A stretch of DNA of 64,000 nt from positions 2,356,001-2,420,000 of the forward strand of contig NZ_CP109132.1 of assembly GCF_035918015.1 (NCBI RefSeq), in the 5' to 3' direction. The notes under the pieces are model-generated. The model was not told the origin of the DNA. It worked only from the letters and a program-made list of their open reading frames with translations, and searched no databases. Of the stretch, positions 13,766 through 58,053 are shown one piece after another (position 1 is the stretch's first letter; every line of letters begins with the position of its first letter). The stretch comes from Streptomyces sp. NBC_01754 (lineage in GTDB: Bacteria > Actinomycetota > Actinomycetes > Streptomycetales > Streptomycetaceae). The translations under genes were made by a program, and so were the position numbers.

Positions 13766-13810
13766 GGATGTCTTGGGGGACGTCCGACGGAGCGTCTTGG
13801 GGGACGCTCC
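13766..13810. repeat. Two tandem hairpins with identical TTGGGG loops
   Basis: GGATGTC/GACGTCC (13766-13785, one wobble pair) and GGAGCGTC/GACGCTCC (13789-13810, perfect) are stem-loops three bases apart, each with the six-base loop TTGGGG. The shared 13-base core GTCTTGGGGGACG makes them a direct repeat as well. They could be a bidirectional terminator pair for copA and gltA, or a protein-binding element. Confidence 0.7.
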
Positions 13811-14124: not shown

Positions 14125-14179
14125 CCCCGGAACACCGGGTCACCCCGGAACACCGAATCGCCCCGGACACCGCGCTCGG
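14125..14179. repeat. Three 18-bp tandem repeats
   Basis: CCCCGGAACACCGGGTCA, CCCCGGAACACCGAATCG and a shortened CCCCGGACACCGCGCTCGG follow each other head to tail about 85 bases after the end of gltA. No function is apparent. Confidence 0.7.
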
Positions 14180-14263
14180 TGGGAGAGCGCGGCACGCGGG
14201 GCGAAGGAAGAGGACCCTGAGGGGCCCGGGGGTTCCACGGCGGAGCGGAACCGGCGGCCGGCC

Positions 14264-15562: not shown

Positions 15563-15759
15563 GTCATCCCTCACCGACGTAGTGCCTCTTCTTCGAGGTG
15601 CCCTGACTGTCTCCACCCTCCCCCATTTGGCTCAGGAGAGTGCACTCGGGGTCGTCCATTGGACCTACAGACGGCACTGAGTGCCGCCAAGTTCCTCATC
15701 CTGCCCCCTCTCACCCGGTTCCGGAAGGGCGTAGTGACGTTTCCCACCGTTTTGATCGA

Positions 15760-41901: not shown

Positions 41902-41970
41902 GTGCCTGGCCCTCCCGCCCCGCAGGATGGGTCATGGGAAGGCCGCCCGGCCTTCCACGGCCGGGGGGTG

Positions 41971-44900
41971 GACGCGGTGGCGGAGAAGAACACGGTCCGC
42001 GGGACCGAATCGGTCACGGCCCCGGCGCCGCGTGTGGCGTCGGCCCGCACGGCCCCCGGGCGCCCGCACGACATCGCCCCGGAAGCACACGAACCGCACG
42101 GTCCCGCCCGAGCGCCGCGCGAAGCCGAACCGGCCCCGCACAGCCCCGCCCCGGAACCGCACGACCCCGCCGCCGGGTCCGCGACCCACGACCGGGCGCC
42201 CGGCCCCGCGCTGCTCCTCGGCGGGCGGGAGAGCGGCGATCCCTGGTGGCGGCCCGGTGTCGTCGGGCAGCGGCCCGCCGAGGAGCCCGACTGGGCCGTG
42301 TTCGTCCGGGAGGCCGTGGCGGGCGCGCCGGCCGATGTGGTGGTCGTGGACCGGGAGTACCCAGGGCTGACCGGTTTCGAGCTGGTGATGACACCGTTCG
42401 CCGCCCGGGCCGCCGAGCGGGTGGTGGACACCGCGACCGGACGCGGCGCGAGGGCCTGCCCCGCCGCCGTACTGGACGGCTTCCGGCAGGACGTGGCCCG
42501 GCGCCTGGCTCGGCTCGCGGCCCGGACACTCGTCCTGGAGCTGCACGAGGCGCGCACCGGGGGCCGGTTGAGCGGCGAGGGGACGCGGGAGCGGTTCCGG
42601 GACTTCCTGCGGCTGGCCGGGAGCCGCTCCGGGCTCGCCTCGCTGGCCGCCCGCTACCCCGTACTCGCCAGGGTGCTGGGCCGGGCCGCCCTGAACGCCG
42701 CCGACGCCTTCGCGGAGATGCTCGGCCGGCTCGCCGCCGACCGGGACCTGCTGGCCTCCTCCGGGCTGCTCGGCGACCGGGACGCGTCCGGCAGCCTCGG
42801 GCCCGAGGCACTGACCGGGGTCACGATGGGCGCCGGTGACAGCCACCGCGGGGGCCGGTCGGTGATGCTGCTGCGGTTCGCCGACGGCACCCGGCTCGTC
42901 CACAAACCGCGTCCGCTCGCCGTCCACCAGCACTTCAACACCCTGCTCGCCTGGTTCAACTCGCTCGCGGACGGCACCGACCTGCTGACGCCTCGGGTGC
43001 TCGACCGGGGGGCCTACGGCTGGGCCGAGTTCGTTCAGGAGGCACCCTGCCGTTCGGCGGACGAGACCGCGCTCTTCTACCGGCGTCTGGGCGGGCTGCT
43101 GGCCCTGCTGCACGTCCTGGACGGCACCGATCTGCACCACGAGAACCTGATCGCCCGTGGGCCGCATCCCGTCCTGGTGGACGTGGAGACGCTGTTCCAC
43201 CCGCCGCTGGCCCCGACGGGCTTCACCGACCCGGCCGCCCGTGCCCTGCACGACTCCGTGCACCGCGTCGGACTGCTGCCGCAGCTGCTGGTCGGGGACA
43301 CCAGCGCCCTCGACATGTCCGCCGTCGGCGGGGGCCGTGCGGCGTCCTCGCCCATCGAGTCCGCGGACTGGGCGGCGGCGGGGACCGACACCATGCGTCT
43401 GGTACGCCGGGCGGGCCGGTTCACCGAGTCGGCCAACCGGCCCCGGCTCGACGGGGTCCGGACCGACCCCTCCTCGTACACCGACGCGTTGTGCGACGGT
43501 TTCCGGGCCGCCTACACGGCCATCGGCGCCAACCGCGACGAACTGCTGGGGGCGAAGGGACTGCTGCGGCTCTTCGCCAGGGACGAGGTCCGCTTCGTGC
43601 CCCGGCCGACCTGGGCGTACGCCACGCTGCTGCACGAGTCCACCCACCCCGACCTGATGCGGGACGCCACCGAGCGGCAGCGGGTGTTCGCGCTGCTGCG
43701 GACCGGCGCCGTGGGCGCGTCCGCGCTGCCCGGACTGGAGGACGAGGAGATCGCCGAGCTGTGGGAGGGGGACGTACCCGTCTTCACCACCCGGCCGGAC
43801 ACCACCGGCCTGTGGAGCGGCACCGGACGCGAGGTGCCGGGCCCCCAGGGCGCCACCGGACTGGAGCGGGCCGAGGCGAAGGTGCGCGCCCTGGACACGG
43901 TGGACCGTCAGGACCAGGAACGGATCATCCGGACCGCCATGGTCAGTACGTCCACCGAGCCCCCGCACCGCACCGGCACCGCCGGCCGGCCCCGGGTGGC
44001 GGCCACCGCGCCCGAGCCCGAGCGGCTGCTGTCCGCCGCGCGGTCGGTGGGCGACCAGCTGGTCTCGCTCGCCTACCACGACCGGGGCCGGACCAACTGG
44101 ATCGGACTGGAGCTGCTCGGCGAACGCTACTGGCGGCTCACCCCGCTGGCGGCGGACCTCGCCTACGGCTACACCGGACCCGCCCTCTTCCTCGCCCAGC
44201 TCGCCTCGCTGACCGGGGAGTCGCGGTACTCCGACGCCGCCCGGGCGGCGCTGGCGCCGGTGCCCGGTCTGCTGGACGCCCTGCACCAGCGGGTCGACGA
44301 CCTCGGCCCGCTCGGATCCGGTGCCTTCGCCGGTCTCGGCGGCATCGCTTACGCCCTCACCGAGGTGGCGACCCTGCTCGCCGACCACCAGGTGATGGAG
44401 TGGGCGGGCCCCGCCACCCGGCTGGGCTGCGCGGCGAGTTCGGCCGAGGCCGGGTACGGGGTGCGCGGCGGCGCGGCGGGCGGACTGGTGTCCTTTCTCG
44501 CGGTGCACCGGACCACCGGCCGGGCGGAGGCATGGCGGGGGGCCGAACGCTGCGCGGAGCGGCTCGCCGCGGCGCCGCTTCCGGCCGCCGGGGGGTTCGC
44601 GGAGGGGGCGGCGGGCATCGGCTGGGCGCTGCTGCGGTTCGCCGGCGCGGGCGGTGGTCCGCGCTACCGCGAGGCGGGGCTGGACGCCCTACGCCGTGCG
44701 GTGCACGGCTCCTACGACGGCAGGTCATGGTGCGAGGGGGCGACAGGCGTCGCGCTCGCGCTCGCCGACAGCCCCGAGGCGCTGACCGATCCCGAGCTGT
44801 CCGCCTGGCTGGCACGCCGGTCCGGTGAGCTGGCCGAGGGGGCTCCGCTCGCCGACGACAGCCTCTGCCACGGCGAGCTGGGCGTCCTGGAGTTACTGGG

Positions 44901-45165
44901 CCACGGCGCCCTGCCGCAGGCCCGCTCCCACTGGCTGCGCCGGACCGGCACCCTGCTGGCCGCCGCCGACCGGGCGCAGCCGTACTGCGGGACGCCCGGA
45001 CACGTACCGCACCCGGGGCTGCTCACCGGCCTGTCGGGTATCGGGCACGGGCTGCTGCGGGCGGGTTTCCCCGACCGGATCGGCTCCGCCCTGCTCCTGC
45101 GCCACTCCCTCGGCGTCCCGGACGGCCGAACAGGCCCGCAGCGCACCTCCGTCGCCGACCGATGA
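41971..45165 (+). CDS. lanM: LanM-type lanthipeptide synthetase with altered cyclase domain
   Basis: A 1064-residue class II synthetase. The N-terminal DUF4135 kinase-like dehydratase keeps its key residues: Asp290/His292 (GDSHRGG), Lys312 (VHKPRP), Asp387/His389/Asn392 (DLHHENL), Asp404/Glu406 (VDVETLF), and Arg/Thr of RFVPRPTWAY for elimination. The C-terminal LanC-like domain has the zinc ligands Cys921 (WCEGATG), Cys966 and His967 (LCHGELG). The motif that normally reads GFxHGxxG reads GFAEGAAG: Glu878 replaces the catalytic acid/base His. The first 100 residues are a Pro/Ala/His-rich extension. Start uncertain (GTG 41902, 41971 or 41980). A Cys-free peptide gene follows at 45322. Probable function: Ser/Thr dehydration without ring closure. 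Confidence 0.9.
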   Translation, partial: DAVAEKNTVRGTESVTAPAPRVASARTAPGRPHDIAPEAHEPHGPARAPREAEPAPHSPAPEPHDPAAGSATHDRAPGPALLLGGRESGDPWWRPGVVGQRPAEEPDWAVFVREAVAGAPADVVVVDREYPGLTGFELVMTPFAARAAERVVDTATGRGARACPAAVLDGFRQDVARRLARLAARTLVLELHEARTGGRLSGEGTRERFRDFLRLAGSRSGLASLAARYPVLARVLGRAALNAADAFAEMLGRLAADRDLLASSGLLGDRDASGSLGPEALTGVTMGAGDSHRGGRSVMLLRFADGTRLVHKPRPLAVHQHFNTLLAWFNSLADGTDLLTPRVLDRGAYGWAEFVQEAPCRSADETALFYRRLGGLLALLHVLDGTDLHHENLIARGPHPVLVDVETLFHPPLAPTGFTDPAARALHDSVHRVGLLPQLLVGDTSALDMSAVGGGRAASSPIESADWAAAGTDTMRLVRRAGRFTESANRPRLDGVRTDPSSYTDALCDGFRAAYTAIGANRDELLGAKGLLRLFARDEVRFVPRPTWAYATLLHESTHPDLMRDATERQRVFALLRTGAVGASALPGLEDEEIAELWEGDVPVFTTRPDTTGLWSGTGREVPGPQGATGLERAEAKVRALDTVDRQDQERIIRTAMVSTSTEPPHRTGTAGRPRVAATAPEPERLLSAARSVGDQLVSLAYHDRGRTNWIGLELLGERYWRLTPLAADLAYGYTGPALFLAQLASLTGESRYSDAARAALAPVPGLLDALHQRVDDLGPLGSGAFAGLGGIAYALTEVATLLADHQVMEWAGPATRLGCAASSAEAGYGVRGGAAGGLVSFLAVHRTTGRAEAWRGAERCAERLAAAPLPAAGGFAEGAAGIGWALLRFAGAGGGPRYREAGLDALRRAVHGSYDGRSWCEGATGVALALADSPEALTDPELSAWLARRSGELAEGAPLADDSLCHGELGVLELLGHGALPQARSHWLRRTGTLLAAADRAQPYCGTPGHVPHPGLLTGLSGIGHGLLRAGFPDRIGSALLLRHSLGVPDGRTGPQRTSVADR

Positions 45166-45172
45166 CCTCCCA

Positions 45173-45301
45173 CCGCTGAACCGAATCCCGCTGGACCGAA
45201 CACCGTCGAACCGATCACCGCTGGACGATCACCACTGGACGCATACCGCTGACCGGTCGGTGCTGGACGATCAGCGCCGAACGACGACCGATGAACGATC
45301 A
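45173..45301. repeat. Degenerate 14/15-bp tandem repeat array
   Basis: About nine imperfect copies of CCGCTGGACCGATCA fill most of the lanM-peptide gap, such as CCGCTGAACCGAATC (45173), CCGCTGGACCGAACA (45188), CCGTCGAACCGATCA (45203), CCGCTGGACGATCA (45218) and CCGATGAACGATCA (45288). No stop-free conserved peptide is encoded. It could bind a repeat-recognising regulator or alter message stability. Confidence 0.75.
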
Positions 45302-45321
45302 CCGACAAGTGAGGCAGAGAC

Positions 45322-45522
45322 ATGACCCAGATCAGCGAAACCGCCCTGTACGCAGCCGCCACCACCGCCCACGACGGCGCCTCCGAGCACCCGGCCGGCC
45401 GGATAGCGCTGGGTTCCGGCGGCGCCCTGGGGCTGCGCAGCCGACTTCTCAGCGCGTCGGACGGTGACGCCGGATACGGGGGCGAGCTGCCGCCGCTGAC
45501 CACGTTCACGAGCCCGCTCTGA
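45322..45522 (+). CDS. Cys-free candidate RiPP precursor peptide
   Basis: A 66-residue peptide starting MTQISETALYAAATTAHDG, with GAGG 9 bases before the ATG. It has no cysteine. A double-glycine site at residues 53-54 (GYGG) would release a 12-residue core, ELPPLTTFTSPL, with Thr60, Thr61, Thr63 and Ser64 as dehydration sites. A second GG occurs at 33-34. It lies 156 bases after lanM on the same strand, so it is the natural LanM substrate candidate. Without Cys no lanthionine can form in this chain. The family is not recognised. Confidence 0.7.
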   Translation: MTQISETALYAAATTAHDGASEHPAGRIALGSGGALGLRSRLLSASDGDAGYGGELPPLTTFTSPL

Positions 45523-45602: not shown

Positions 45603-48518
45603 ATGCGAGCCACATCCCCGGTCATCGTGGGCCGCGAACACGAGATCGTCCTGCTGGGCAGCGCCCTGGACGCCGCGCGACGGCGTTCAGGGCGCGCGCT
45701 GTTCCTCGTCGGCGAGGCGGGGATCGGCAAATCCCGGCTGGTGGGCGAATGCGCCTACCGGGCCTACGGCCTGGGCATGCCGGTGCTGCGTGGCCGGGCC
45801 GGCTCGACCGGCCTCGTCGTACCGTTCCGCCCCCTGGTGGAAGCCCTCTCGTCCCATTTCCGGGCGGCGGGAACCCCGTCGGACCCAGAACTCACCCCCT
45901 ATCACCCGGCGTTGGCGAGACTCGTGCCGGAGTGGCGATCCACCGCCACCTCCGGCTATCCGGGCACCGTGGTCGAACTGGCCGAGGCACTGCTGCGGTT
46001 GCTGTCCGTACTGGGCAGGGAGACCGGCTGTGTGATGCTGCTGGAAGACCTGCACGACTGCGACACCGAGACCCTCGCGGTCGTCGAGTACGTCGTGGAC
46101 AACCTGGCGGACCTGCCGATCCTGCTGCTGGGCACCCTGCGCCCGGAGCCGGGCACCGCCCTGGACCTCGTACGCGCCGCCGAGCAGCGCCACACCGCGT
46201 CGGTACGGGAGCTGGGGGCGCTCGACGACGCGCAGGTGCGGATCCTGACCGGTGCCTGCCTGGAGGCGCCGCCCGAGCAGATACCCCCGGCGGTCCAGAC
46301 CCGCCTGACCGAACGGGCGTCAGGCAACCCGTACTTGGTGGAAGTGCTGCTCGCGGACCTGCTCGAGACCGGCCGGTTACGGCACACGGAGAACGGCTGG
46401 GAGGCCACGGAACAGCCGGAGGCCACACTGCCGTCCCGCATCCTGCGGGGCTGGGCGCGCAGGCTCGACCAACTGGACGAACCGGTGCGGGACCTGCTGC
46501 TGACGGCGGCCACCCTCGGCAGCCAGTTCTCCGTGGCGGTCCTCCAGACCGTCACCGGCCTGGAGGACCGGGCCCTGTTCACCCATCTGAGGTCCGCCGT
46601 GGAGACGGGCGTGATCGCCCCCGACGGCGCGGCCCCCGACCGCTACACGTTCCGCCACACGCTCACGGCGGAGGCTCTGGTCTCCTCGCTCGCACCCGCC
46701 GAACGCGCCGCACTCGCCCGCCGGGCGGCCGCGGCGGTCGAGCGGACCGATGCGCCTCTGGACGAGGACCGCAGGCAGCTCGTCGCCTCCCTGGAGCTCG
46801 CGGCGGGCAACCGGGCCGGCGCGGCACGGCAGTTCGCCGAGGCGGGACGGCGGATGCTCGCGGCGGGGTCGCACGGTTCGGCCATGGTGCTCCTGGAGCG
46901 GGCCCACTCCCTGGCGGCCGAGGCCGACCGGTCGGCCGTGACCGAGGCCCTGGCGGTCGCGCGGGCCGAGAGCGGGGACCTGGACGGTGCCCTGGCACTG
47001 GCGGACACGCTGCCACCGGTGCCCGCACGCTCCGAGGCCGCCGCCGGGCGCGGTGACGCCCACATCAAGATCGCCTGGGTCGCGGTGATGGCGGAGCGGG
47101 CCGTCGACACGGCCCGTCAGATCGCGGCGGCACGCGCTCTGCTCGGACCGTCGCCGTCCCCCGCGCGCTGTGCGTCGCTCGCCGTCGTCGACGGCCATCT
47201 CTCGCTGCTGCCCGGCGAGGAGCGGGGGGAGCCGGAGGCGGCCGAGCGGGCCGCCCGGGCGGCCGCGGAGACCGCCGAGGCCGAGGGGCTCCCGGTGGTG
47301 GCCTGCCAGGCCTGGCAGTTGCTGGCGCTGCTCGCCCGGGAGGACGGTTTCGACGCGGCCGACGCCTGTCTGGAGCGGATGCTCTCCCTGTCCACCGAGC
47401 ACTCCCTGCCGCTGTGGCGGGTGGAGGCCATGGTGCGGCTGGGCGCGAACGGCTTCATGCGTACCGGCGACCCGGCCCGGTTGTACGCGGCGCGGACGGC
47501 GGCCGCGGAACTGGGCTCGCTGCTGCTGGCGCAGACGGTCGACGGACTGCTCGCCATGAACGCGGTGATGTGTGCCCGGTGGGACGAGGCGGAGGAGACC
47601 GTCGAGCGGTCGGTGGAGTCCAGCGCCCGGATCGGGAACCTCGCCGCGCACCGCTATCTGCTGCTGGCCGGGGCCACGATGGCCGCGCACCGCGGACGCC
47701 GGAGGGAACGGGACCGCTATCTCGCCGCGTTCCGCCGGGCCGGCGGCGAGGAGTCCGGGCTGGTCCCCCTGCGGCTGGGATTCTGCCGCGCCATCGGCGC
47801 GCTGCTGGAGGAGGACCGCGCCGTGGCCCTGACCGATCTGGACGCGGCGCTGGCCTGGGAGCGGGACCACCCGAGCTACTACTACCTGAGCGGCCGTTAC
47901 GGGCTGCGGCCGCTGCTGCGGGTGCTGGCGGGCAGGTCGGACCGTGCAGAGTTCGAGGTGGTGGCCGCGTCCCCCGGGGCGGTACTCGCCTGGAACCGGC
48001 AGTTCCTGGACCTGGCGGAGGCGGTGCTGCTGGGCAGGGAGGGCGAGGCGGCCGGTGCCGAACGGCGGGTCGTGGCCTTCCAAGCCCGGTCCGAGGCGTT
48101 CCCGGTGGCCCGGCACCTCGGTCTGCGGCTGGTCGCGGAGGCGGCCCTCGCCGACGGGTGGGGAACGCCGGTGTCATGGCTGCGCAGCGCCGAGGAGTTC
48201 TTCTACGCCGCCGGGGTGCAGCCGGTGGCGGCGGCGTGCCGGGCGGCCCTCCGGCACGCCGGGGTGAGCGTGACCCAGCACCGCGACGGCCGGGACCGGA
48301 TCCCCTCGCCGCTGCGCACGCACGGTGTGACGCCCCGGGAGTACGAGGTGTTCGTCCTGCTGGCCGAACGCCCGGGCAACCAGCAGATAGCCCGGCGGCT
48401 GTCCATCTCGCCCCGCACGGTGGAGAAGCACCTGGCCAGCCTGCTCAGCAAGACGGGCCGGGCGAACCGGGCGGCGCTGTGCGAGTTCGCGGCGGAGTGC
48501 CTCGTCGACCACGCCTGA
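45603..48518 (+). CDS. LuxR-family AAA/TPR regulator (MalT/LAL type)
   Basis: A 971-residue large LuxR-type (LAL) regulator. The N-terminal AAA/STAND ATPase has VGREHEIVLLGSALDAARR, Walker A FLVGEAGIGKSRLV and Walker B VMLLEDLHDCD. A long helical TPR-like middle follows. The C-terminal LuxR helix-turn-helix is TPREYEVFVLLAERPGNQQI then ISPRTVEKHLASLLSKTG. It is a pathway-specific activator candidate for the peptide cluster. TAGCCT (45591-45596) lies 6 bases before the ATG with TGCCAC 17 bases further upstream, so the message may be leaderless. Confidence 0.92.
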   Translation: MRATSPVIVGREHEIVLLGSALDAARRRSGRALFLVGEAGIGKSRLVGECAYRAYGLGMPVLRGRAGSTGLVVPFRPLVEALSSHFRAAGTPSDPELTPYHPALARLVPEWRSTATSGYPGTVVELAEALLRLLSVLGRETGCVMLLEDLHDCDTETLAVVEYVVDNLADLPILLLGTLRPEPGTALDLVRAAEQRHTASVRELGALDDAQVRILTGACLEAPPEQIPPAVQTRLTERASGNPYLVEVLLADLLETGRLRHTENGWEATEQPEATLPSRILRGWARRLDQLDEPVRDLLLTAATLGSQFSVAVLQTVTGLEDRALFTHLRSAVETGVIAPDGAAPDRYTFRHTLTAEALVSSLAPAERAALARRAAAAVERTDAPLDEDRRQLVASLELAAGNRAGAARQFAEAGRRMLAAGSHGSAMVLLERAHSLAAEADRSAVTEALAVARAESGDLDGALALADTLPPVPARSEAAAGRGDAHIKIAWVAVMAERAVDTARQIAAARALLGPSPSPARCASLAVVDGHLSLLPGEERGEPEAAERAARAAAETAEAEGLPVVACQAWQLLALLAREDGFDAADACLERMLSLSTEHSLPLWRVEAMVRLGANGFMRTGDPARLYAARTAAAELGSLLLAQTVDGLLAMNAVMCARWDEAEETVERSVESSARIGNLAAHRYLLLAGATMAAHRGRRRERDRYLAAFRRAGGEESGLVPLRLGFCRAIGALLEEDRAVALTDLDAALAWERDHPSYYYLSGRYGLRPLLRVLAGRSDRAEFEVVAASPGAVLAWNRQFLDLAEAVLLGREGEAAGAERRVVAFQARSEAFPVARHLGLRLVAEAALADGWGTPVSWLRSAEEFFYAAGVQPVAAACRAALRHAGVSVTQHRDGRDRIPSPLRTHGVTPREYEVFVLLAERPGNQQIARRLSISPRTVEKHLASLLSKTGRANRAALCEFAAECLVDHA

Positions 48519-48805: not shown

Positions 48806-50719
48806 ATGAACCGACCTCCCGCCCGCCCCGGCACCGCCGGTACGGTGTACTTCTCGCTGCTGGGGCCGCTCACGGCCCTGGTCGACGGCAGTCCGCTGCC
48901 GCTCGGTCCCCGCAAGCAGCGCCTCGTCCTGGCCACCCTGCTCTCCCGACCCAACACCCCGGTACCGGTCGACGTACTGACCGACGTGGTGTGGCCGGAG
49001 GCACCGCCGCGGACCGCCCGTAAGAACCTCCAGGTCTACGTCAGTGCCGCCCGTGCGCTCTTCGGGACCGTGGACGGGGGCGACCGGGACCGGGTGGTGC
49101 ACGGCTGCGGCGGCTACCGGCTGCGGGTCGAGGAGGGCGAACTGGACACCCTGCGCTTCCACGCGCTGACCCGGGCGGGCCGGGCCGCCGGGGAGCGGGG
49201 TGACCTGCGCACCGCGGCCCGGCTCCTGCGGGAGGCCCTGGACCTCTGGGGGGAGCGCCCGCCCCTGCACGATCTGCGGGACTCCGACGTGGTGGCGCAG
49301 GAGGCCGAACGGCTGGAAGCCCGCTGTCTGACGGTCTACGAGGACTGGGCGGAGGCCGAGACCGAGACGGGCCGGGCGGCCGTCGCGGTGGACGGACTGC
49401 GGGACCTGGTGGAGCGTCACCCGCTACGGGAGCGGCTGCGGGCGGCCTGGATGAACTCCCTGCACCATTCGGGCCGCCAGGCCGAGGCGCTGGCGGTGTA
49501 CGACGACTACCGCCAGCTGCTGGCCCGGGAGCTGGGGCTGGAACCCAGTCCGGCGCTGGCCGCCCTCTACGGGCGGATCCTCCGCCGGGGGGCCTCGGCC
49601 CCGCCCGCCGCCCCGCCCGAGGCCGCCCCGCGCAAGGCCGCGTGCGACGTGTCGCTGCCCACGGACCTCCGGGCCTTCACGGGCCGCGAGGACGAACTGG
49701 CACGGCTGCACCGCTCGGCGGGCGCCCCGGACGGCGGTGTGGTGGTCGTGACGGGCCCCGCCGGGGTGGGCAAGTCGGCGCTGGCCGTCCGGGCCGCGCA
49801 TCTGCTCGACGACGTCTTTCCCGGCGGGCGGGTCCACGTCCGGGCCCGGCGCGGGGACGGCACGGCCCGGACCCCGGGCGACATGCTGGAGGAGCTGGCA
49901 CGCCTGTGCGACGTGGGCGTCCCGGACCGGCCGGACACGGCGGCGGCCGAGACCGCCTGGCAGGACTGGCTGTCCCGGCACCGGGCCCTGGTGGTCCTGG
50001 ACGACGTGGTGGACGAGGCGTCGGTGCGCGGGCTGCTGCCCCGGTCGGGGCGGTCCTCGGTGGTGCTGACCGCGCGGGGGCAGCTGGCCGGTCTGGCGCC
50101 GGTGCACCGGATCGCCCTCTCCGCGCCCGGGGAGGCGGAGGCCCTGGAGCTGCTGGCCGGACTGGTCGGCACGGACCGTCTGCGGACGGACCCGGCGGCG
50201 GCCCGGCGGATCGTACGGGCCTGCGGGGCGCTGCCGTTGGCGGTGACGGTGAGCGGCATGCGGCTGGCGGTGCTGCGGCACCTGCCGCTGGCGGAGTACG
50301 CGGCGCGGGTCGAGGACCCGGGGGCGGCCCTGGACGAACTGGTGGCCGGAGACGTCTCCGTACGGTCGCGGATCGCCGCGGGCTGGCAGGACCTGAGCGC
50401 GCACAACCGCACGGCACTGGCCCGGCTCGCGGGGCTCTCGCCGGACGGCGGCTTCACCCTGGAGGGGGCGATGGCGGCGCTGGCCCGTGGCGAACGGGAG
50501 ACCATCCGCGCGGTCGAGGCGCTCATCGACACGGGTGTGGTGGCCTCGCCCGCCGGTGAGGTCACCGCCCACGCCGCGTGGTACGAGGTGCCGCGCCTGC
50601 TCTGTCTGTACGCCCGCGAGACCGCGGACCCGGGCGGGGACGCCGGTGCCCCCGTGGTGTCCCGGGTGCCGGCCCTCCCGCTCCTCCAGCCGCCCTCCGG
50701 CTCCCTCAGCCGAGGATGA
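48806..50719 (+). CDS. SARP-family regulator with AAA domain (AfsR-like)
   Basis: A 637-residue protein. The N-terminal winged helix (LLGPLTALVDGSPLPLGPRK, VDVLTDVVWPEAPPRTARKN) and bacterial transcriptional activation domain (residues 110-255, ending ELGLEPSPALAALYGRIL) define a SARP. It is followed by an NB-ARC/STAND ATPase (VVVVTGPAGVGKSALAVRAA; LVVLDDVVD) and a short helical end. AfsR has in addition TPRs, which are missing here. GGAGG lies 7 bases before the ATG. SARPs activate antibiotic or RiPP clusters, so it is probably the second local activator. Confidence 0.93.
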   Translation: MNRPPARPGTAGTVYFSLLGPLTALVDGSPLPLGPRKQRLVLATLLSRPNTPVPVDVLTDVVWPEAPPRTARKNLQVYVSAARALFGTVDGGDRDRVVHGCGGYRLRVEEGELDTLRFHALTRAGRAAGERGDLRTAARLLREALDLWGERPPLHDLRDSDVVAQEAERLEARCLTVYEDWAEAETETGRAAVAVDGLRDLVERHPLRERLRAAWMNSLHHSGRQAEALAVYDDYRQLLARELGLEPSPALAALYGRILRRGASAPPAAPPEAAPRKAACDVSLPTDLRAFTGREDELARLHRSAGAPDGGVVVVTGPAGVGKSALAVRAAHLLDDVFPGGRVHVRARRGDGTARTPGDMLEELARLCDVGVPDRPDTAAAETAWQDWLSRHRALVVLDDVVDEASVRGLLPRSGRSSVVLTARGQLAGLAPVHRIALSAPGEAEALELLAGLVGTDRLRTDPAAARRIVRACGALPLAVTVSGMRLAVLRHLPLAEYAARVEDPGAALDELVAGDVSVRSRIAAGWQDLSAHNRTALARLAGLSPDGGFTLEGAMAALARGERETIRAVEALIDTGVVASPAGEVTAHAAWYEVPRLLCLYARETADPGGDAGAPVVSRVPALPLLQPPSGSLSRG

Positions 50720-51028
50720 GCGGGGCCGGCGGCCCGGCGGGGCCCCGCCTCCGGTGGGGTCCCGCCCCGGCGGCGGGGCGGAGCCGTGCCCGCCGTCGCC
50801 CAGCGGCCGAGGAGGTTCCGCCCGCGAGACGCTTCGGCGGCGGTATGGCCCCGGTATCGCGGCAGTTCGTCGGGGCTGTGCGTCCCGTGGCCGGCGCGGC
50901 CCCCGGCACACCCCGGCTGACCTGGGCCCATACCGCCCTTGAAGCGGCCATGGACCGCCACCGAACCACCGCGGGTCAGCCTGGGTACGCGCCCGACGCG
51001 CCCGGTCCTCTGAAGGAGGCGGCCCCGC
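50720..51028. other. Promoter region of the radical SAM operon
   Basis: No gene is supported in these 309 bases between the SARP and radical SAM genes. The first 100 bases are extremely GC-rich with short inverted CCGGCGG/CCGCC motifs; the rest should carry the operon promoter and ends with AAGGAGG before the radical SAM ATG. Confidence 0.45.
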
Positions 51029-52138
51029 ATGGAACTCGGCGAACTCGTCGGACGGCGGCCGTTCCCCGCCGCCGGTCTGCTGCTCGGACTGACCCGGCGC
51101 TGCCCCCTGAGCTGCGCCCACTGCTCGACCGGTTCGGACATGACCGTGCGGGAACGGCCGGACGCCGGCGACCTCGTGCGCTTCGTGTCCTCCTTCACCC
51201 CGGACGACCGTCCCGACGTGCTCATGCTGACCGGGGGTGAACCGCTCCTGCTGCCCGGGCTCGTGGAGCGGCTCAGCGTGCTCGCCCACCGGGCCGGATC
51301 GCGTACCGCACTGCTCAGCGGCATGTTCTTCGCCCGCTCGCGGCACATCCCGGCCCCGCTCCTGCGGGCGATCACCGGCGTCGACCACTTCTCGGCCAGC
51401 CTCGACGTCCACCACGAACGGGAGGTCGGGCGGGCCGACGTCTTCCGCGCCCTGCACCGGATCCGGGACGCGGGGGTGGCGGTGAGCTTCCATCTCACGG
51501 GTACGGGGGCCTCGGACCCGTATCTCGCGGACCTCACCCGGGCCGTCGAGGAGGAGTTCGGCGGTCAGGTGCCGTCGCTGGTCAACGAGATACGGCCGTT
51601 CGGGAGGGCGGCGGCCTGGGCCGGGCCCGCCCGCAGCGCCCCGGACGCGGGGGCGGTGTCCCCGTGCGCCATGGCCGCCTGGCCGGTGGTCGCCTTCGAC
51701 GGCACGGTCCTGGCCTGCTGCAACCAGGACACCGTCGACCTGCGGCCCGCCCCGGCCCATCTGCGCCTCGGGCACATCGCCACCGACGACTGGGCGGCGA
51801 TACGCCGACGCGCCCTGGAGTCACCGGTGCTGCGCCTGATCCGCACGGTCGGCCCCTCCCGTCTGGCCGCGATGTCCGGCCGGTTGCCCCGGGGCGGCTC
51901 CTACTGCGACGGCTGCCGGGCACTGGGCGGCGACGCGCGGGTGGCGGCCACGGCCGGGGCGGTGGCGGCGGGCCCGGCGGGCGCGCTGCTGGACCTGGCC
52001 GCTGCCCGGCAGGGTGCCGCCGGGGGCGCGGAGGGAGTGGTACGGCGCCACGGCTGCGCCGCGTACGCCCCCCTTGTCGTCACGGGCGCCACCGGAGCCG
52101 CCGGCCCGGACGGGGCCGCCCGGGGCGGTGCCCGGTGA
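51029..52138 (+). CDS. Radical SAM protein with SPASM-like C-terminal cysteines
   Basis: A 369-residue radical SAM enzyme. The [4Fe-4S] motif is CPLSCAHC (Cys near residues 27, 31 and 34), followed by the GGEP motif MLTGGEPLLLPG. The C-terminal third has SPCAMAAWPVVAFDGTVLAC, CNQDT and SYCDGCRALGG, a cysteine pattern like SPASM domains that hold extra clusters in peptide-modifying enzymes. AAGGAGG lies 9 bases before the ATG. It is translationally coupled (4-nt overlap) to the diiron protein and through it to the 81-residue peptide, which suggests these three work on one substrate. Confidence 0.9.
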   Translation: MELGELVGRRPFPAAGLLLGLTRRCPLSCAHCSTGSDMTVRERPDAGDLVRFVSSFTPDDRPDVLMLTGGEPLLLPGLVERLSVLAHRAGSRTALLSGMFFARSRHIPAPLLRAITGVDHFSASLDVHHEREVGRADVFRALHRIRDAGVAVSFHLTGTGASDPYLADLTRAVEEEFGGQVPSLVNEIRPFGRAAAWAGPARSAPDAGAVSPCAMAAWPVVAFDGTVLACCNQDTVDLRPAPAHLRLGHIATDDWAAIRRRALESPVLRLIRTVGPSRLAAMSGRLPRGGSYCDGCRALGGDARVAATAGAVAAGPAGALLDLAAARQGAAGGAEGVVRRHGCAAYAPLVVTGATGAAGPDGAARGGAR

Positions 52139-52875
52139 GCGCCGCCACCCGGCCGAACACGTCGGCGCGGCTACGGGTCACCCTGGGGCTGCTGGACGGC
52201 GAGTTACGGGAGGCGATGGAGTACCTGTGGCGTCCGGAGGACCTGCTGCCGCGCTACCGCACGTATCTGTGCGCCATGCACACGGTGGTGCGGGCCTCCG
52301 TTCCGCTGATGGAGCGGGCCCGGGAACGCGCCCTGCTGCTGGCGGCCCGGGGTGACGATCCGGTGGCCGGTCCGCTCGCGGCCTACCTGGCCGGGCACAT
52401 CCGGGAGGAGGAGGGCCACGACACCTGGCTGCTGGAGGACCTGCGGGCGGCCGGCGCCCGGCCCGGGGACGCGCTCGCCCCGATGCCCGCGCCGGTCGTC
52501 GCGGCACTCGCCGGCTCCCAGTACTACTGGATCGAGCACCACCACCCGGTCGCCCTGCTCGGCTACATCGCGGTGCTGGAGGGGTACGCCCCCGCCGACG
52601 GGCTGACCTCCCGTATCGCCCGTCTGACGGGGCTGCCGGACGCCGCCCTGCGGACCGTACGGGAACACGCGGCGCTGGACACCGGGCATCTGGACGACCT
52701 CCACGCGGCGCTGGACGCCCTTCCCCTGACGCCACGTCAGGAGGCGGACGTCGTGATCAGCGCCCTGCACTCCCTCGACGCCCTCACCCGACTGTTCGTC
52801 CGGCTCGGGCGCTCCACGGCGGTACCACCGCGGCGGGGGGCCGGACCTTCCTCACCGATGGGAGTACCACCATGA
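52135..52875 (+). CDS. Haem-oxygenase-like diiron protein
   Basis: A 246-residue all-helical protein of the iron-containing redox (haem-oxygenase-like, TenA-related) superfamily. Candidate metal ligands: Glu and His in HIREEEGHDTWLLED, Glu in YIAVLEGYAP with the preceding IEHHHP, and Asp/His in HAALDTGHLDDLH. Known relatives do C-H or C-C bond cleavage, N-oxygenation or alkene formation in natural-product pathways. The GTG start overlaps the radical SAM stop and its stop overlaps the peptide start (ATGA), so it is part of a tightly coupled trio. Substrate unknown. Confidence 0.85.
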   Translation: MSAATRPNTSARLRVTLGLLDGELREAMEYLWRPEDLLPRYRTYLCAMHTVVRASVPLMERARERALLLAARGDDPVAGPLAAYLAGHIREEEGHDTWLLEDLRAAGARPGDALAPMPAPVVAALAGSQYYWIEHHHPVALLGYIAVLEGYAPADGLTSRIARLTGLPDAALRTVREHAALDTGHLDDLHAALDALPLTPRQEADVVISALHSLDALTRLFVRLGRSTAVPPRRGAGPSSPMGVPP

Positions 52876-53117
52876 CCCGACCCCCCGAGAGCGGCGGCGC
52901 CCCCGGCCCGCCCGGCGACGGCGAACCACCCCTCGTGCCGGAGGCGTTGTACGAGGCCGGACTGCCGGTGCACCTGCTGAGCGACGAGCAGCTGCTCGTG
53001 CTCAGCCGGCTGACGCCGGAGGAGCTGGGCGTGCTGCTCGACATCAAGAGCCGGCTGGACGAGGTGGAACCGGAGGTCCAGGCCCACGGCGAGATCGCCG
53101 GCGGCGCCCTGTTCTGA
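52872..53117 (+). CDS. 81-residue peptide, aroma-sacti-like domain
   Basis: An 81-residue acidic peptide without cysteine. A Pro/Gly-rich head (residues 1-24) is followed by LYEAGLPVHLLSDEQLLVLS, RLTPEELGVLLDIKSRLDEV and a tail EPEVQAHGEIAGGALF. From memory it resembles the small domain annotated in actinomycetes as aroma-sacti cluster domain, which lies near radical SAM genes; I could not check this. It could be a precursor whose tail is modified, or a recognition/carrier peptide for the radical SAM enzyme. The ATG overlaps the diiron gene by 4 nt. Confidence 0.75.
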   Translation: MTRPPESGGAPGPPGDGEPPLVPEALYEAGLPVHLLSDEQLLVLSRLTPEELGVLLDIKSRLDEVEPEVQAHGEIAGGALF

Positions 53118-53241
53118 GCCCCGTCCGCACGGTCTCGCCCGGGCCCACGCCGTCCGGTCCTGTCCGGCGGGCCTTCGCCTGACGGGCCCCGGTGCCGTGG
53201 GCCCGGTGCACGCGGTCCACGGCGGGGCCGCCACGTACCGC

Positions 53242-53299
53242 CCCCGTGTCCCGGCGGACCACGGCTCCGCCCGGCACCCCGGTCCGCCGGGACACGGGG
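53242..53299. terminator. 19-bp inverted repeat before the cyclase gene
   Basis: CCCCGTGTCCCGGCGGACC and its perfect complement flank a 20-nt loop, ending 34 bases before the cyclase ATG. It is probably a terminator or attenuator for the radical SAM trio; it could also be an operator, since it lies where a cyclase-operon promoter would be. Confidence 0.7.
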
Positions 53300-53333
53300 C
53301 GGGGACCGACCGCCCTCCGAGAGAAGGAACCCG

Positions 53334-56300
53334 ATGACCTGCCCCTCGTGCCGTCAGGACCTGCCGCCGGACGCCCGGTTCTGCTCGTCCTGCGGGACAC
53401 CGTGCGCCGCCGCGCCCGCCCCGGGGGACGACGAACGCAAACCGGTGACGGTGCTCTTCTGCGATCTCGTCGGCTCCACGGCGCTGTCGGGCGTACTGGA
53501 CCCGGAGACCCTGCGCACGGTGACGCTCCGGTACTTCGAGGCGATGAGCGACCGGATCGTGGCCGAGGGCGGCACCCCGGAGAAGTTCATCGGGGACGCC
53601 GTGATGGCGGTGTTCGGTGTTCCGGTGGTCCGGGAGGACGACGCCCGGCGGGCGCTGGCCGCGGCGCTCGGGATGCGGGACGCGCTGGCCGAGCTCAACG
53701 AGGAACTGCACGCCACGCTCGGCATCCGGCTGGTCACCCGGGTCGGTGTGAACACCGGTCAGGTGGTGGCCGGGGGCGACGCGACGGCCCGCCAGGCCCT
53801 GGTCTCCGGGGAGACGGTCAACATCGCCGCCCGGCTGGAGCAGAACGCCGGCCCGGGCGAGATCCTCATCGGGCCGCACACCCTGCTGGCCGCCGGACCG
53901 ACGGTCTCCGCCGAGCCCACCGGGCCGCTGCGCCTCAAGGGCAAGCAGGACAGCGTGGAGGCCTACCGGCTGCTCGCACTGGGCACGGACGACCCGGCGC
54001 AGCTGCGCCGATTCGACGTGCCCTTCGTCGGCCGCCGCCGCGAACAGGACGCTCTGGACGCGGCCCTGGCCCGGACCGTGCGCGAGGGACGGGCGGGACT
54101 GCTGCGGGTCACCGGGGAGGCGGGCACCGGCAAGACCCGGCTGGTACGGGAGTGGCTGACCCGGCGCACCGCCTCGGGCTCTCTCGCCTACGGCGCGGGC
54201 CGCTGCCGCAGTCACGGGGAGCGGGGATCACTGACACCGCTCGCCGACGCCGTGCGCGCCCTGGCGTCGCTCACCGTCCGGGCGGGGCACCCCGGGGCGG
54301 CGGACGACGACGCGACGGCCCTGCTGTCGGCGGGGCTGCTGAGGGACGGCACCCCGAACGCGCCGTTCGAGGACATGTGTGCCGCGCTGACGACCGTGCT
54401 GGCCCGGGCCGCCCGGTCCCGGCCCGTCGTGGTGGTGCTCGACGACGCGCACGCGGCCGCGCCCCTGCTGCTGCGGACGCTGGAGCGGCTGGCCGAGGGG
54501 CCGGGCCCCGCGGGTGTGCTGATGGTCTGTGTGGGCCGCCCGGACGGGACCGCCGAGGGAAGGGACTTCCTCCAGGTCACCGGGCTGCCCCCCGCGGAGG
54601 CCGCGGGCCTCGCCGCGCGGCTGGCCCGGCTCGACGGACGGCGGGTACCGGTGGACGAGCGGGTCCTGGCCCGGGCCGAAGGCAATCCGCTGTACCTGGA
54701 ACAACTGCTGGTCGGGGCGGACGGGGTGGCCGCCGGAGAGGGCCCCGAGGGCGGTCTGCCGCCCACGCTCCAGGCGCTGCTCGGCGCCCGTATCGGAGCG
54801 CTGGCGAAGGCCGAGCGGACCATGGTCGATCTCGCCGCCGTGATCGGCCGCGAGTTCACCGCGGCCGAACTCGTCCTGCTGGAGGTGTCCGCGCGGCTGG
54901 CCGAACGGCCGCCGCCCGCCGTGGTGGCCGTCCCGCCCGGGGAGCGGGCCCGGCACCTGGCGCGGGTCGAGGAGGTGCTCGCGGCGCTGAGCCGGCGCCG
55001 GCTGGTGGAGCCCGCGCCGGCCGGGGGCCCGCAGGACGCGGCCTACCGCTTCAGCAGCGGGCTGGTGCACGAGGTGACCTACGCGTCGCTGTCCAAGCGG
55101 GCCAAGGCCGACCGCCACGCCTGGGCGGCGGAGCTGCCCGGTGTGCTGCGTGCCGGCGACGGCGCCGTCGGCGGCCATCTGGAACGGGCCTACCGCTACC
55201 GGGCCGAGCTGGGGCTGCTCGATGACGGCACCCGGCGGCTGCGGGACCGGGCGGCCGGGGCGCTGGCCAGGGCCGGGGCCCAGGCCGCCGCCCGCTCCGA
55301 CCTGCCCTGGGCGCACAGCCTGCTGGAGCGGGCGGTCCAACTCGCCCCCGACAACGCCGGATCGGTGCGCCGGCTGGGCGAGACACGGGTGGCGCTCGGA
55401 CACATCGAGGAGGGGGCGGCCCTGCTGCGCCGGGTGCGGGACATGGACTCGGCGCCGGTGGAGTCCGCGCACGCCCGGCTGGCGCTGGTGGTGCTGGACC
55501 CAGGCGGCCCGGGCCCCGGTCTCACCGCGACCGCCCGGGCGGTCCTGCCGGTCTTCGAAGCGGCCGGGGACTCGGTGGGCCGGGCCCGGGCACATCTGCG
55601 GCTCGCCCAGCGCCTCCAGCAGGCCGGCCGCCACGAGGAGGCCGGACGCGACCAGGCGCGGGCCCTGGAACAGGCGGTGCTGGCCGGCGCCGAACCGGAG
55701 CGCGCCGGGGCGCTCGGGGCCATCGGCATCTCGCTGTGGCGCGGCCCGGTGCCCGCACCCGAGGCGGTGGAACGCTGCCGCGCGCTGCTGGCGGCGCACG
55801 GCGGGGCCCGCCCCACGGTCCGGCTCACCCTGAACTGCCCACTGGCCGTGCTGTACGCCCTCCAGGACCGGCCCCGCGAGGCGCACGGCTGCCTGGCGGA
55901 GGCGGACGCGCTGGCCCGGAAGCTGCGGTTCGCCGAGGCGGAGGTGTTCCTGCCGGTGTTCCGGGCGGCGGTGGAGTCGCTGCTGGGCCACGGCCCGGCC
56001 GCGCTGGAGCTGCTGGCCCGCGCCGACGAGGCGGCCCGGCACACCGGCGCGGCGGGGATGCGTACGGCGGTCGCGCTGGACGCGGCCCGGATCGAGCTCG
56101 ACTCAGGACTCACCCGCCGGGCCGCCACCCGGCTCGCCGGCGTCGGCGACGGGACGGAGCTGAGCCACGCCGACGCGGTCGATCTGCAAGGGATGCGGGG
56201 CCGGCTGTCGGCCGCCGAGGGCCGCCCGTTCGAGGCGACCGTCCACGCGGACCGGGCGGTGGCGGCCTCGCTGCTCACGGACTCCCCCCTGGTCCAGGCG

Positions 56301-56582
56301 ACGGCCGAACTGGACCGCGCCCACACCCTGTACGTCCTGGGCCGAAGAGCGGACGCCCGGGCCGCCGCGCGCACCGCGCGGGAGCACTTCACGAGCAAGG
56401 GACATCTGCCGGGGGCCCGCCGGGCCGCCGGCTGGCCGCCGGAGACAGCGGTGACGGACGGACCAGTGGCCGGCACACCGGTGACGGACGGACCGGCAGC
56501 CGACAGAACCGTGCCGGACGCGACGGCGCCCGCCGAACCGGTGCCGCGGGGGACCGCGCTCACCACGAGGGAGAGGGGCTGA
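53334..56582 (+). CDS. Class III nucleotide cyclase with AAA and TPR domains
   Basis: A 1082-residue multidomain protein. Residues 1-25 form a zinc ribbon (MTCPSCRQDL ... FCSSCGTPC). Residues 35-210 form a class III cyclase domain with both metal aspartates (VLFCDLVGSTALS and FIGDAVMAVFG), a base-recognising Lys (EKF) and the transition-state Asn/Arg in ETVNIAARLEQ. An AAA/STAND ATPase follows (LRVTGEAGTGKTRLVREWL; VVVVLDDAHAA), then about 450 residues of TPR-like helices, and a Thr/Asp/Pro-rich tail. It may make cAMP or cGMP on sensing a partner. The position of the second substrate-specifying residue is Leu instead of Asp, so the nucleotide is uncertain. Three bases separate it from the protease gene. 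Confidence 0.9.
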   Translation: MTCPSCRQDLPPDARFCSSCGTPCAAAPAPGDDERKPVTVLFCDLVGSTALSGVLDPETLRTVTLRYFEAMSDRIVAEGGTPEKFIGDAVMAVFGVPVVREDDARRALAAALGMRDALAELNEELHATLGIRLVTRVGVNTGQVVAGGDATARQALVSGETVNIAARLEQNAGPGEILIGPHTLLAAGPTVSAEPTGPLRLKGKQDSVEAYRLLALGTDDPAQLRRFDVPFVGRRREQDALDAALARTVREGRAGLLRVTGEAGTGKTRLVREWLTRRTASGSLAYGAGRCRSHGERGSLTPLADAVRALASLTVRAGHPGAADDDATALLSAGLLRDGTPNAPFEDMCAALTTVLARAARSRPVVVVLDDAHAAAPLLLRTLERLAEGPGPAGVLMVCVGRPDGTAEGRDFLQVTGLPPAEAAGLAARLARLDGRRVPVDERVLARAEGNPLYLEQLLVGADGVAAGEGPEGGLPPTLQALLGARIGALAKAERTMVDLAAVIGREFTAAELVLLEVSARLAERPPPAVVAVPPGERARHLARVEEVLAALSRRRLVEPAPAGGPQDAAYRFSSGLVHEVTYASLSKRAKADRHAWAAELPGVLRAGDGAVGGHLERAYRYRAELGLLDDGTRRLRDRAAGALARAGAQAAARSDLPWAHSLLERAVQLAPDNAGSVRRLGETRVALGHIEEGAALLRRVRDMDSAPVESAHARLALVVLDPGGPGPGLTATARAVLPVFEAAGDSVGRARAHLRLAQRLQQAGRHEEAGRDQARALEQAVLAGAEPERAGALGAIGISLWRGPVPAPEAVERCRALLAAHGGARPTVRLTLNCPLAVLYALQDRPREAHGCLAEADALARKLRFAEAEVFLPVFRAAVESLLGHGPAALELLARADEAARHTGAAGMRTAVALDAARIELDSGLTRRAATRLAGVGDGTELSHADAVDLQGMRGRLSAAEGRPFEATVHADRAVAASLLTDSPLVQATAELDRAHTLYVLGRRADARAAARTAREHFTSKGHLPGARRAAGWPPETAVTDGPVAGTPVTDGPAADRTVPDATAPAEPVPRGTALTTRERG

Positions 56583-56585
56583 CCG

Positions 56586-57476
56586 ATGGGAGCCACCGGA
56601 ACGGGAACGGCACCGGAGCGGGGACTGGGACTGACCTGGAGCCTGCGCGGGCGCGGTCCCGAGGACGTGCCGGTGCCCGCCGACCCGGGGCCGCCGGGCG
56701 GCCGGCCCGAACCCCGGGCGACCGGGCGCGGGGTGCGGGTGTGCGTGGTGGACTCGGGGGTGGAGCGCGACCATCCGCTGGTAGGCCCGGTGGACGGCTC
56801 CTGGGTGGTGGTCAAGGACGGGGAGAGCGGTGCGCTCACCGTCGAGCCGACCACGACCGGGGACACCTGCGGGCACGGCACCGCGTGTGCGGGCATCATC
56901 CGCCGCACCGCCCCCGACTGCGAGCTGCACAGCGTCCGCGTCCTCGGCGAGCGCTTCTCCGGCACGGGGGACGTCCTGATGGCCGGCCTGCGCTGGGCGG
57001 TGGAGCAGCGCTTCGACGTGGTGAACCTGAGCCTGTCGACCACCCGCACCCGGTTCGCGCCGGAGCTGCACGAACTGGCCGACCGCGCCTACTTCGCCCG
57101 TACGGTGATCGTGGCGTCGGCGCACAACACCCCGGTGGAGAGCTTCCCCTGGCGGTTCGCCTCGGTGATCTCCGTCGGCAGCCACCAGGAGGACGACCCC
57201 GAACTCCACCTGTACAACCCGCGGCCCCCGGTGGAGTTCTTCGGGCCGGGGCAGAACGTGTCGGTGCCGTGGCTGGGCGGCCGGACGATCCGTACGACCG
57301 GGAACAGCTTCGCCACCCCGTACGTCGCGGGACTCTGTGCCCGGGTCCTCTCCGCACATCCCAGGATGACGGCCTTTCAGCTGAAGAACGCCCTCTATCT
57401 GTCCGCGGCCAACGTGCACGCCGGTCCGCGTCCTTCCACAGCGGCAGGAGATACCTGTGATGACTCCGAGAACTGA
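56586..57476 (+). CDS. Subtilisin-like (S8) protease without signal peptide
   Basis: A 296-residue S8 protease with the full catalytic set: Asp in VRVCVVDSGVERDH (near residue 57), His in CGHGTACAG, the oxyanion Asn in VASAHNTPVE and Ser in TTGNSFATPYVAG. There is no signal peptide and no long prodomain, so it should act in the cytoplasm. Candidate roles are leader removal from the cluster peptides (LanP-like), or regulated proteolysis controlled by the cyclase encoded before it. It overlaps the GAF gene by 20 nt. Confidence 0.9.
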   Translation: MGATGTGTAPERGLGLTWSLRGRGPEDVPVPADPGPPGGRPEPRATGRGVRVCVVDSGVERDHPLVGPVDGSWVVVKDGESGALTVEPTTTGDTCGHGTACAGIIRRTAPDCELHSVRVLGERFSGTGDVLMAGLRWAVEQRFDVVNLSLSTTRTRFAPELHELADRAYFARTVIVASAHNTPVESFPWRFASVISVGSHQEDDPELHLYNPRPPVEFFGPGQNVSVPWLGGRTIRTTGNSFATPYVAGLCARVLSAHPRMTAFQLKNALYLSAANVHAGPRPSTAAGDTCDDSEN

Positions 57477-58053
57477 CGCCACGCTCGCCGCCTCCCCCGC
57501 CCCGGGCGAGGCCGCCCGGCGCGAACTGCTCCAGTCGGTCGTCGATGTGGCACGCGCGATCTTCGGGGCTGCGGCCAGCTCCGTCTTCCTGCTCGACGAG
57601 GAGGCGGACGAACTGGTCTTCCAGGCCGTCTCCGGTGAGGGCGAGGAGTTCCTGGTGGGCCGCCGCTTCCCGGCCGGGCGGGGCATCGCCGGCTGGGTGG
57701 TGACCTCGGGTGAGCCGATGGTGGTGGACGATCTGAGCAGCGACACGTCCTTCGACCGCTCGCTGGCCGAGTCCACCGAGTTCGTACCGAACGCCCTGAT
57801 GGCGGCCCCGCTGATCAGCGACTCCCGGATCCTCGGGGTGCTGGAGGTGCTGGACCCGTCACCGCAGGCGCGGTCGGGCGTCCGCGAGCTGGACCTGCTG
57901 GCGATGTTCGCCCGGCAGGCGGCCGCCGCCCTGCGGGTCCTCTCCCCGGGACCGGTGGCGGCGGGCGCCGGACGCGCCCTGGACGACACCCGGCGGGAGG
58001 ACGCCTTGCAGCTGCTCGGCAGCCTGGAACGGCTGTTGCGGGGCACGGGCTGA
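57457..58053 (+). CDS. GAF-domain protein
   Basis: A 198-residue protein with one GAF domain (residues 20-160): FGAAASSVFLLDEEADELVF, FPAGRGIAGWVVTSGEPMVV, NALMAAPLISDSRILGVLEV. It has no output domain. GAF domains bind cyclic nucleotides or other small ligands. It is the third gene of a run with the cyclase and the protease and overlaps the latter by 20 nt, so it may be the receptor of the cyclase product. GTG 57457 has AGGAG about 8 bases upstream; ATG 57460 is the alternative. Confidence 0.88.
   Translation: MMTPRTDATLAASPAPGEAARRELLQSVVDVARAIFGAAASSVFLLDEEADELVFQAVSGEGEEFLVGRRFPAGRGIAGWVVTSGEPMVVDDLSSDTSFDRSLAESTEFVPNALMAAPLISDSRILGVLEVLDPSPQARSGVRELDLLAMFARQAAAALRVLSPGPVAAGAGRALDDTRREDALQLLGSLERLLRGTG

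Follow-up and report, generated by a model that had tools for sequence, protein, structure and literature searches.

A LanM-type synthetase clade mostly lacking the ring-closing histidine, with cysteine-poor peptides and a constant LAL regulator

The window analysed in this work, 64,000 nt of Streptomyces sp. NBC_01754 (contig NZ_CP109132.1, positions 2,356,001 to 2,420,000), contains a gene for a LanM-type class II synthetase, followed on the same strand by genes for a 66-aa peptide without cysteine and for a LAL-type LuxR regulator. The LanM has a glutamate (Glu879) where the GFxHG motif of the family has its ring-closing histidine, and belongs to a clade in which this histidine is absent from nearly all members. 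Judged from sequence, the enzyme probably dehydrates its peptide but closes no rings; we put this explanation as a whole at a probability of roughly three in four, with the loss of ring formation being well supported by comparative evidence. The three genes form a constant unit that stands beside several kinds of biosynthetic cluster, and this is the strongest new point of the analysis.

The LanM of the window

A search of the genome (7.77 Mb, 2 contigs) with a LanM model gave a single match, the LanM of the window. The protein possesses a DUF4135 domain with kinase-like residues and a LanC-like domain with Cys/Cys/His zinc ligands, as expected of a LanM, and departs from the family in lacking the active-site histidine of GFxHG. 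In a profile alignment to solved structures, Glu879 fell on the histidine of the catalytic motif of LicM2 (GFSHG) and of CylM (GFGHG), in agreement with an earlier reading made from the letters alone (hereafter the sequence-only reading), which had assigned the GAG codon of GFAEGAAG to this position. That reading was correct in the residue; its number, 878, was counted from 41971, which is no start codon, and becomes 879 from the GTG at 41968, the top-scoring start in a simple, home-made gene caller. The database copy of the protein is 1062 aa long, three residues shorter. The zinc ligands described as kept are present (Cys922, Cys967 and His968), and so are the dehydratase residues: 11 positions (D258, D291, H293, K313, D388, H390, N393, D405, E407, R542 and R546), of which the catalytic ones are known from work on CylM, are identical in all 55 clade relatives compared.

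Glu879 is neither a chance substitution nor a sequencing error, since the 120 best of 1237 LanM homologues (the window LanM being one of them) have Asp (79), Glu (40) or Asn (1) there and never His. The possibility of a decayed gene was also rejected. The ratio of nonsynonymous to synonymous substitution (dN/dS) of the cyclase domain is 0.23–0.29 against three close relatives, which indicates that this domain is still under purifying selection, and a structural model of the domain is folded. Against the more distant L030 (loci and genomes are cited by L and G numbers) the ratio is 0.55 for the cyclase domain and 0.54 for the dehydratase domain.

In the related cyclase NisC, the variants H212N and H212F retained zinc and gave no cyclisation (PMC7296275), and Asp141 and His212 were proposed for acid-base chemistry in a structure paper (PMC9889658). 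The Asp of the LYDG motif in the window LanM was considered as the counterpart of NisC Asp141, but the alignment did not settle the equivalence and it is not claimed.

Distribution of the site residue across the clade

When 84,980 species genomes were scanned for the 66-aa peptide, 29 loci were found; in 27 of these the LanM extends to the site, which holds Asp (23) or Glu (4). Further loci were supplied by LanM searches in overlapping samples of 81, 101 and 119 genomes. The clade set comprises 54 LanMs, the window's not counted, each having a LAL gene as neighbour or, for L050 and L063, which lie at contig ends, a place in the same tree clade. LanMs were de-duplicated by their last 600 residues, while the 57 clade peptides were not de-duplicated by genome. 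Left out of the LanM counts were entries shorter than 850 aa or not called (L002, L011, L021, L024, L075 and L089), the partial below-cut-off matches L069–L073, L162, and matches listed without a locus (8 of 38 in one search; 17 of 47 in another, three of these already in the set). By motif, the site is Asp in L002 and L024 and His in L075, L089 and L162; L011 and L021 end before it. An orthologue in whose cyclase domain the reading frame changes (L107, in G183), which may be a natural truncation or a sequencing error, was likewise left out of these counts and kept among the 55 rows compared for dehydratase residues.

Across the 54 LanMs the site is occupied by Asp (31), Glu (11), Arg (3), Thr (3), His (2) and, once each, Asn, Phe, Gly and Gln. 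The histidine is therefore replaced in 52 of 54 clade members, against none of the 22 canonical LanMs, which have no LAL beside them, and none of seven further LanMs from other orders; L075, L089 and L162, which a length filter had removed, likewise keep it. The Tyr of the LYxG motif, present in all 22 canonical proteins, is missing from every one of the 54, and the zinc ligands, also complete in the 22, are kept in 45 and lost in nine. In a quick tree of 58 rows, with some long branches flagged by the program, the 36 clade rows (window included) and the 22 canonical rows were split at SH-aLRT 100. A LAL gene adjoins 34 of the 36 clade rows, with L050 and L063 stopping at a contig end, and none of the canonical ones, so the LanM tree and the LAL neighbour, two independent criteria, delimit the same clade.

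The LanMs without zinc ligands form a sister group (L052, L053, L081, L084, L103–L106 and L108) whose called peptides have tails close to GMVLTSGIVITLSTLDTSVSAPR. Four of these loci were fetched further (as L110, L111, L122 and L123) and have open reading frames (ORFs) of megasynthase size downstream; a non-ribosomal peptide synthetase (NRPS) with a cytochrome P450 was confirmed in L110. The branch can be regarded as a natural decay series, from LanMs that keep the histidine beside a Cys-poor peptide, through those that have lost it with zinc ligands kept, to those with the zinc ligands lost, and lets one ask what role the LanC fold has besides cyclisation.

The precursor peptide and its relatives

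The 66-aa ORF was taken to be a real gene because 14 homologues were found among 5.8 billion proteins and the alignment of the 15 sequences contains 25 invariant columns, with EHPAG, I-L, LG-RS-LLS and TT-T invariant or nearly so. The peptide was confirmed to be free of Cys, as the sequence-only reading had stated, and with it the core Cys of a class II product is missing; one homologue has a Cys in the leader and none has one in the tail. The leader motif resembles the THPAGTIDL of the canonical, Cys-containing precursor of L045, and the canonical L046 peptide joins AWK with GHPAGQIRL, which together suggest that the peptide arose from a class II precursor. A scan of the peptide against NCBIfam matched no family. 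The ending FTSPL was considered as the conserved C-terminal FxSxx motif of FxsA cyclophane precursors; this was rejected, given homologues that end in FTVPM, MTAPW and others and the lack of an FxsA or NCBIfam match. A His-to-Dhb crosslink like that of the peptides in PMC10206099 was also rejected, as the window tail contains no His.

Cys is missing altogether from 41 of the 57 clade peptides, and from the last 25 residues of 53 (L106, where no small ORF was called, and the contig-end loci L050 and L063 are not counted). For the canonical LanMs a small neighbour with a Cys in the last 25 residues was found in 20 of 21 cases, the exception being L051; no small ORF was called at L088, the remaining canonical locus. 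A clade mostly without the ring-closing His, whose peptides are mostly without a late Cys, indicates a LanM that is probably restricted to dehydration. The sequence-only reading had proposed a LanM that works only as a dehydratase, matched to a Cys-free precursor; for peptides poor in Cys, the pattern across the clade supports this.

The proposed chemistry would be that of a class II synthetase which has kept the phosphorylate-and-eliminate half of the reaction and lost thioether cyclisation. The LanM would bind the 66-aa peptide by way of a presumably ancestral class II leader motif, made up of EHPAGxIxL and the conserved stretch LRSRLLS. Ser and Thr of the C-terminal tail (TTFTS) would be dehydrated to dehydroalanine (Dha) and dehydrobutyrine (Dhb), leaving a product free of lanthionine rings. 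The cyclase domain, with its fold predicted to be kept and its zinc ligands present in the window's subgroup, would probably serve as a platform that holds the substrate.

Several points weigh against this explanation. A single Cys lies in the last 25 residues of the L055, L082, L083 and L086 peptides (4 of 57), and a Cys occurs somewhere in 16 of 57, so a non-His LanM stands nearly always, rather than always, beside a Cys-free precursor, and such orthologous loci speak against a strict pairing. The histidine is kept by two LanMs of the clade, L054 with its zinc ligands present and L081 with them lost, neither of which is paired with a peptide that has Cys among its last 25 residues. The loss of His and the loss of Cys, which the sequence-only reading held to fit each other, do so across most of the clade but are not strictly coupled. 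No assay of Asp or Glu at this position was described in the available text of the literature searched, and neither a dedicated protease nor an exporter was seen beside the minimal locus (G107). Finally, the zinc site is intact throughout the main group of the clade (n = 40), and three further histidines are fixed or nearly so (H1015 in 40 of 40, H979 and H1027 in 39 of 40 each), while these positions are mostly different in the rest of the clade and in canonical LanMs; a rebuilt active site is therefore possible.

Such a site in the main group would combine zinc with Asp or Glu, and perhaps a newly fixed His, in another reaction, for example hydrolysis or the addition of a nucleophile other than Cys. 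The invariance of His968 (40 of 40) beside the near-fixed histidines, the presence of Asp or Glu in 42 of 54 clade members and the dN/dS of at most 0.29 in the three closest comparisons are all in keeping with it, but Asn or Thr occupies the site in the subclade rows L049, L050, L083 and L102 and the zinc ligands are lost in the sister group, and we consider it rather unlikely. Asp or Glu as a universal new catalytic acid was rejected, since Asn, Thr, Arg, Phe, Gly and Gln are also found at the site.

The order of the losses may be read from L054 and L081 as Cys before His. L054 is alone among the zinc-bearing clade loci in having a LanM with the histidine. Against Cys being lost first, the same locus fetched further (L112, G026) has a 29-aa ORF with three Cys at 3625–3714, behind the LAL gene, which could be a separate precursor of a ribosomally synthesized and post-translationally modified peptide (RiPP). 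The related subclade peptides of L055 and L083 end in a single C-terminal Cys (TITVC and TVPLC) beside LanMs without the site His; in their sisters the peptide ends in Ser (L049) or Phe (L102).

The LAL regulator as constant partner

Both a LanM and a LAL gene are present in all 29 peptide-selected loci, and LAL identity tracks LanM identity over 53 loci (r 0.97, reached by 0 of 999 permutations). The second-best LAL of the window genome shares only 32% identity over about 435 residues, whereas the LALs of loci with a LanM at 41–52% identity are 45–60% identical over the part present, which looks like a dedicated LAL lineage. The flanking clusters vary: a LanKC class III set or the different set of L120 in the main group; NRPS with P450 (L110), NRPS (L109) or a class V cluster (L114) outside it, as identified by family scan; and none of these in G107.

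A constant unit beside differing clusters makes a bolder reading a live one, that the LanM-modified peptide is the ligand or signal of the adjacent LAL and the trio a portable cassette that switches the neighbouring cluster. It would add a function to ring-less dehydration without conflict with that chemistry, and we hold it as possible but tentative. The constancy of the trio, the variety of its flanks, the correlated identities and the remoteness of the next LAL in the window genome all favour it; a LAL by a cluster may however be a plain pathway activator, correlated divergence follows from co-inheritance alone, Streptomyces cluster genes crowd together, and in L066 the LAL gene lies on the strand opposite to LanM and peptide. 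Its fullest form, a mobile intracellular signalling cassette in which the dehydrated Cys-poor peptide would be the ligand of the co-inherited LAL and which would be plugged into class III, class V, NRPS and radical SAM clusters as a common switch, appears from the sequences somewhat less likely again. To our knowledge, little is known of the ligands of STAND-type LuxR regulators in general, and the constant LAL partner provides a direct test of whether a RiPP acts as the internal ligand of one.

Comparison with known systems

The window LanM shares the DUF4135 dehydratase, the LanC-like domain and the fold with the class II enzymes LicM2 and CylM, and its peptide has a leader motif resembling that of a canonical precursor, but it lacks the GFxHG His and the LYxG Tyr and its precursor lacks Cys. 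CcaM, a LanMbC enzyme of the dehydrazole pathway (PMC10676384), is similar in that a DUF4135 enzyme fused to a cyclase-like domain acts as dehydratase; it differs in that its cyclase domain is of the class III type and has no zinc ligands, its peptides contain azoles and its partner is a YcaO. In the window the zinc ligands are present and no YcaO was found among the cluster genes scanned. The LanM-like proteins of the CA_C0082 type (PMC10301443) are also thought to be non-cyclising and are linked to regulation, yet they lack both zinc-binding and dehydratase residues and sit with agr genes.

Cys-free LanM precursors are already known from LanM/LanKC hybrid clusters. According to the available text of PMC7268733, these clusters were known from Zhang 2015 (its ref 25), and the LanM-associated precursors had no Cys and were therefore excluded; Cys-free peptides can in this way be discarded in genome mining, as that paper states for its own pipeline. 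PMC11251773 describes, as its subfamily C, a second peptide, free of Cys, next to class III peptides of the CxSxxS type, and proposes a complex of two peptides. With a CxSxxS LanKC precursor and a Cys-free second peptide, these are very probably the clusters of the main group. In the available text of both papers nothing is said of the lost His, of the LAL gene, of a wider clade or its sister group without zinc ligands, nor of the aroma-sacti half described below, although Zhang 2015 itself may mention them. The literature searched, as far as its text was available, gave nothing closer to a ring-less LanM than the LanM/LanKC, CcaM and CA_C0082 papers. It also yielded no account of the missing His, of the clade or of its link to the LAL, with the same reservation for Zhang 2015.

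Gene neighbourhood and the adjacent module

The features of the window are collected in Table 1. In 12 fetched main-group genomes the gene order is LanM, peptide, LAL and SARP, then an exchangeable middle block, then radical SAM protein, HDO, aroma-sacti protein, cyclase/AAA regulator, subtilase and GAF protein, the last two not always within the fetched stretch. The SARP gene is present in 27 of the 29 peptide-selected loci, and the remaining two stop at a contig end.

Table 1. Features of the LanM locus and adjacent module, in window coordinates
Feature	Position	Strand	Remarks
LanM-type synthetase	41968..45165	+	start uncertain: GTG 41968; ORF open from 41902
Dehydratase (DUF4135) domain	42415..43887	+	residues about 150–640; conserved positions intact
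LanC-like cyclase domain	44035..45117	+	residues about 690–1050; fold predicted intact (model)
Glu879, codon GAG	44602..44604	+	occupies GFxHG histidine position; motif GFAEGAAG
Zinc ligand Cys922 (WCEG)	44731..44733	+	WCHG in 19/22 canonical LanMs
Zinc ligands Cys967-His968 (LCHG)	44866..44871	+	
66-aa precursor peptide, Cys-free	45322..45522	+	14 homologues; 25 invariant columns over 15 sequences
Leader motif EHPAGRIAL	45385..45411	+	resembles THPAGTIDL of the L045 precursor
Thr/Ser-rich tail LPPLTTFTSPL	45487..45519	+	predicted dehydration site; homologues end LPWTTFTVPM, LPWTTMTAPW and similar
LAL-type LuxR regulator (AAA_16 + GerE)	45603..48518	+	constant partner of LanM and peptide
SARP/AfsR-like regulator	48806..50719	+	in main group except G107
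Radical SAM protein	51029..52138	+	adjacent, separable RiPP module
Haem-oxygenase-like iron enzyme (HDO, PF14518)	52135..52875	+	adjacent module
81-aa aroma-sacti domain protein	52872..53117	+	candidate precursor of adjacent module; NF045560 70.8 bits, cut-off 30
Adenylate/guanylate cyclase + AAA regulator	53334..56582	+	adjacent module
Subtilase-family protein	56586..57476	+	adjacent module
GAF-domain protein	57460..58053	+	adjacent module

The middle block consists in 8 of the 12 genomes of LanKC, an MFS protein and a 51–55-aa precursor with one Cys, and in the other four of a different set terminating in a 37–39-aa peptide; in L120 this set contains a radical SAM protein and a glycosyltransferase match that is weak and scored below the cut-off. 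It is absent from the window, where the junction at 50719–51029 can be compared with L018 (15360–19706) and L120 (5455–13574).

The Cys of the LanKC precursor, together with the two-peptide complex suggested in PMC11251773, raises the question of whether ordinary lanthionine chemistry could proceed with a Cys supplied in trans, from such a precursor or from a Cys peptide elsewhere. We consider this very improbable: no LanKC orthologue was found in the window genome, the best partial match being 34%, the clade persists without LanKC within the 20 kb fetched, and the site His is lost.

Positions 51029–58053 represent a second RiPP module of the window. The sequence-only reading had offered its radical SAM or diiron enzyme as possibly finishing the LanM product, and the association of the two halves lends this some support, since the aroma-sacti domain is carried by 13 of the 14 main-group genomes in the sample of 101, G107 being the exception, and the halves stay together despite the exchange of genes between them. 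The module however has its own candidate precursor and can occur apart from the LanM. The domain scored above cut-off in 22 of the 101 genomes, six of which (G012, G024, G102, G106, G115 and G127) have no LanM match at 1e-80. Radical SAM and HDO genes adjoin it in two of these, G102 and G127, and in G003 on a contig other than that of its LanM. G024 has the domain with a weak radical SAM match nearby, in G012 and G062 neither gene was found within about 1.5 kb, and G106 and G115 gave no aroma locus. Conversely, G107 has LanM, peptide and LAL alone, without SARP, middle block or aroma-sacti module, and for each of 8 genomes from other parts of the clade, the 20 kb fetched downstream held no match to radical SAM, HDO or aroma models. 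The presence of the radical SAM, HDO and aroma part of the module in G102 and G127 and the absence of the module from G107 show the LanM half and the aroma-sacti half, though associated, to be separable, and finishing of the LanM product by these enzymes is improbable. A literature search for 'aroma-sacti' gave no result.

In L114, a class V cluster with LxmK, a luciferase-like oxidoreductase and HopA1 lies at 8961–16616, next to the LAL of the LanM-peptide-LAL unit. It includes four short candidate precursors, and the two that were tested both match the LxmA leader.

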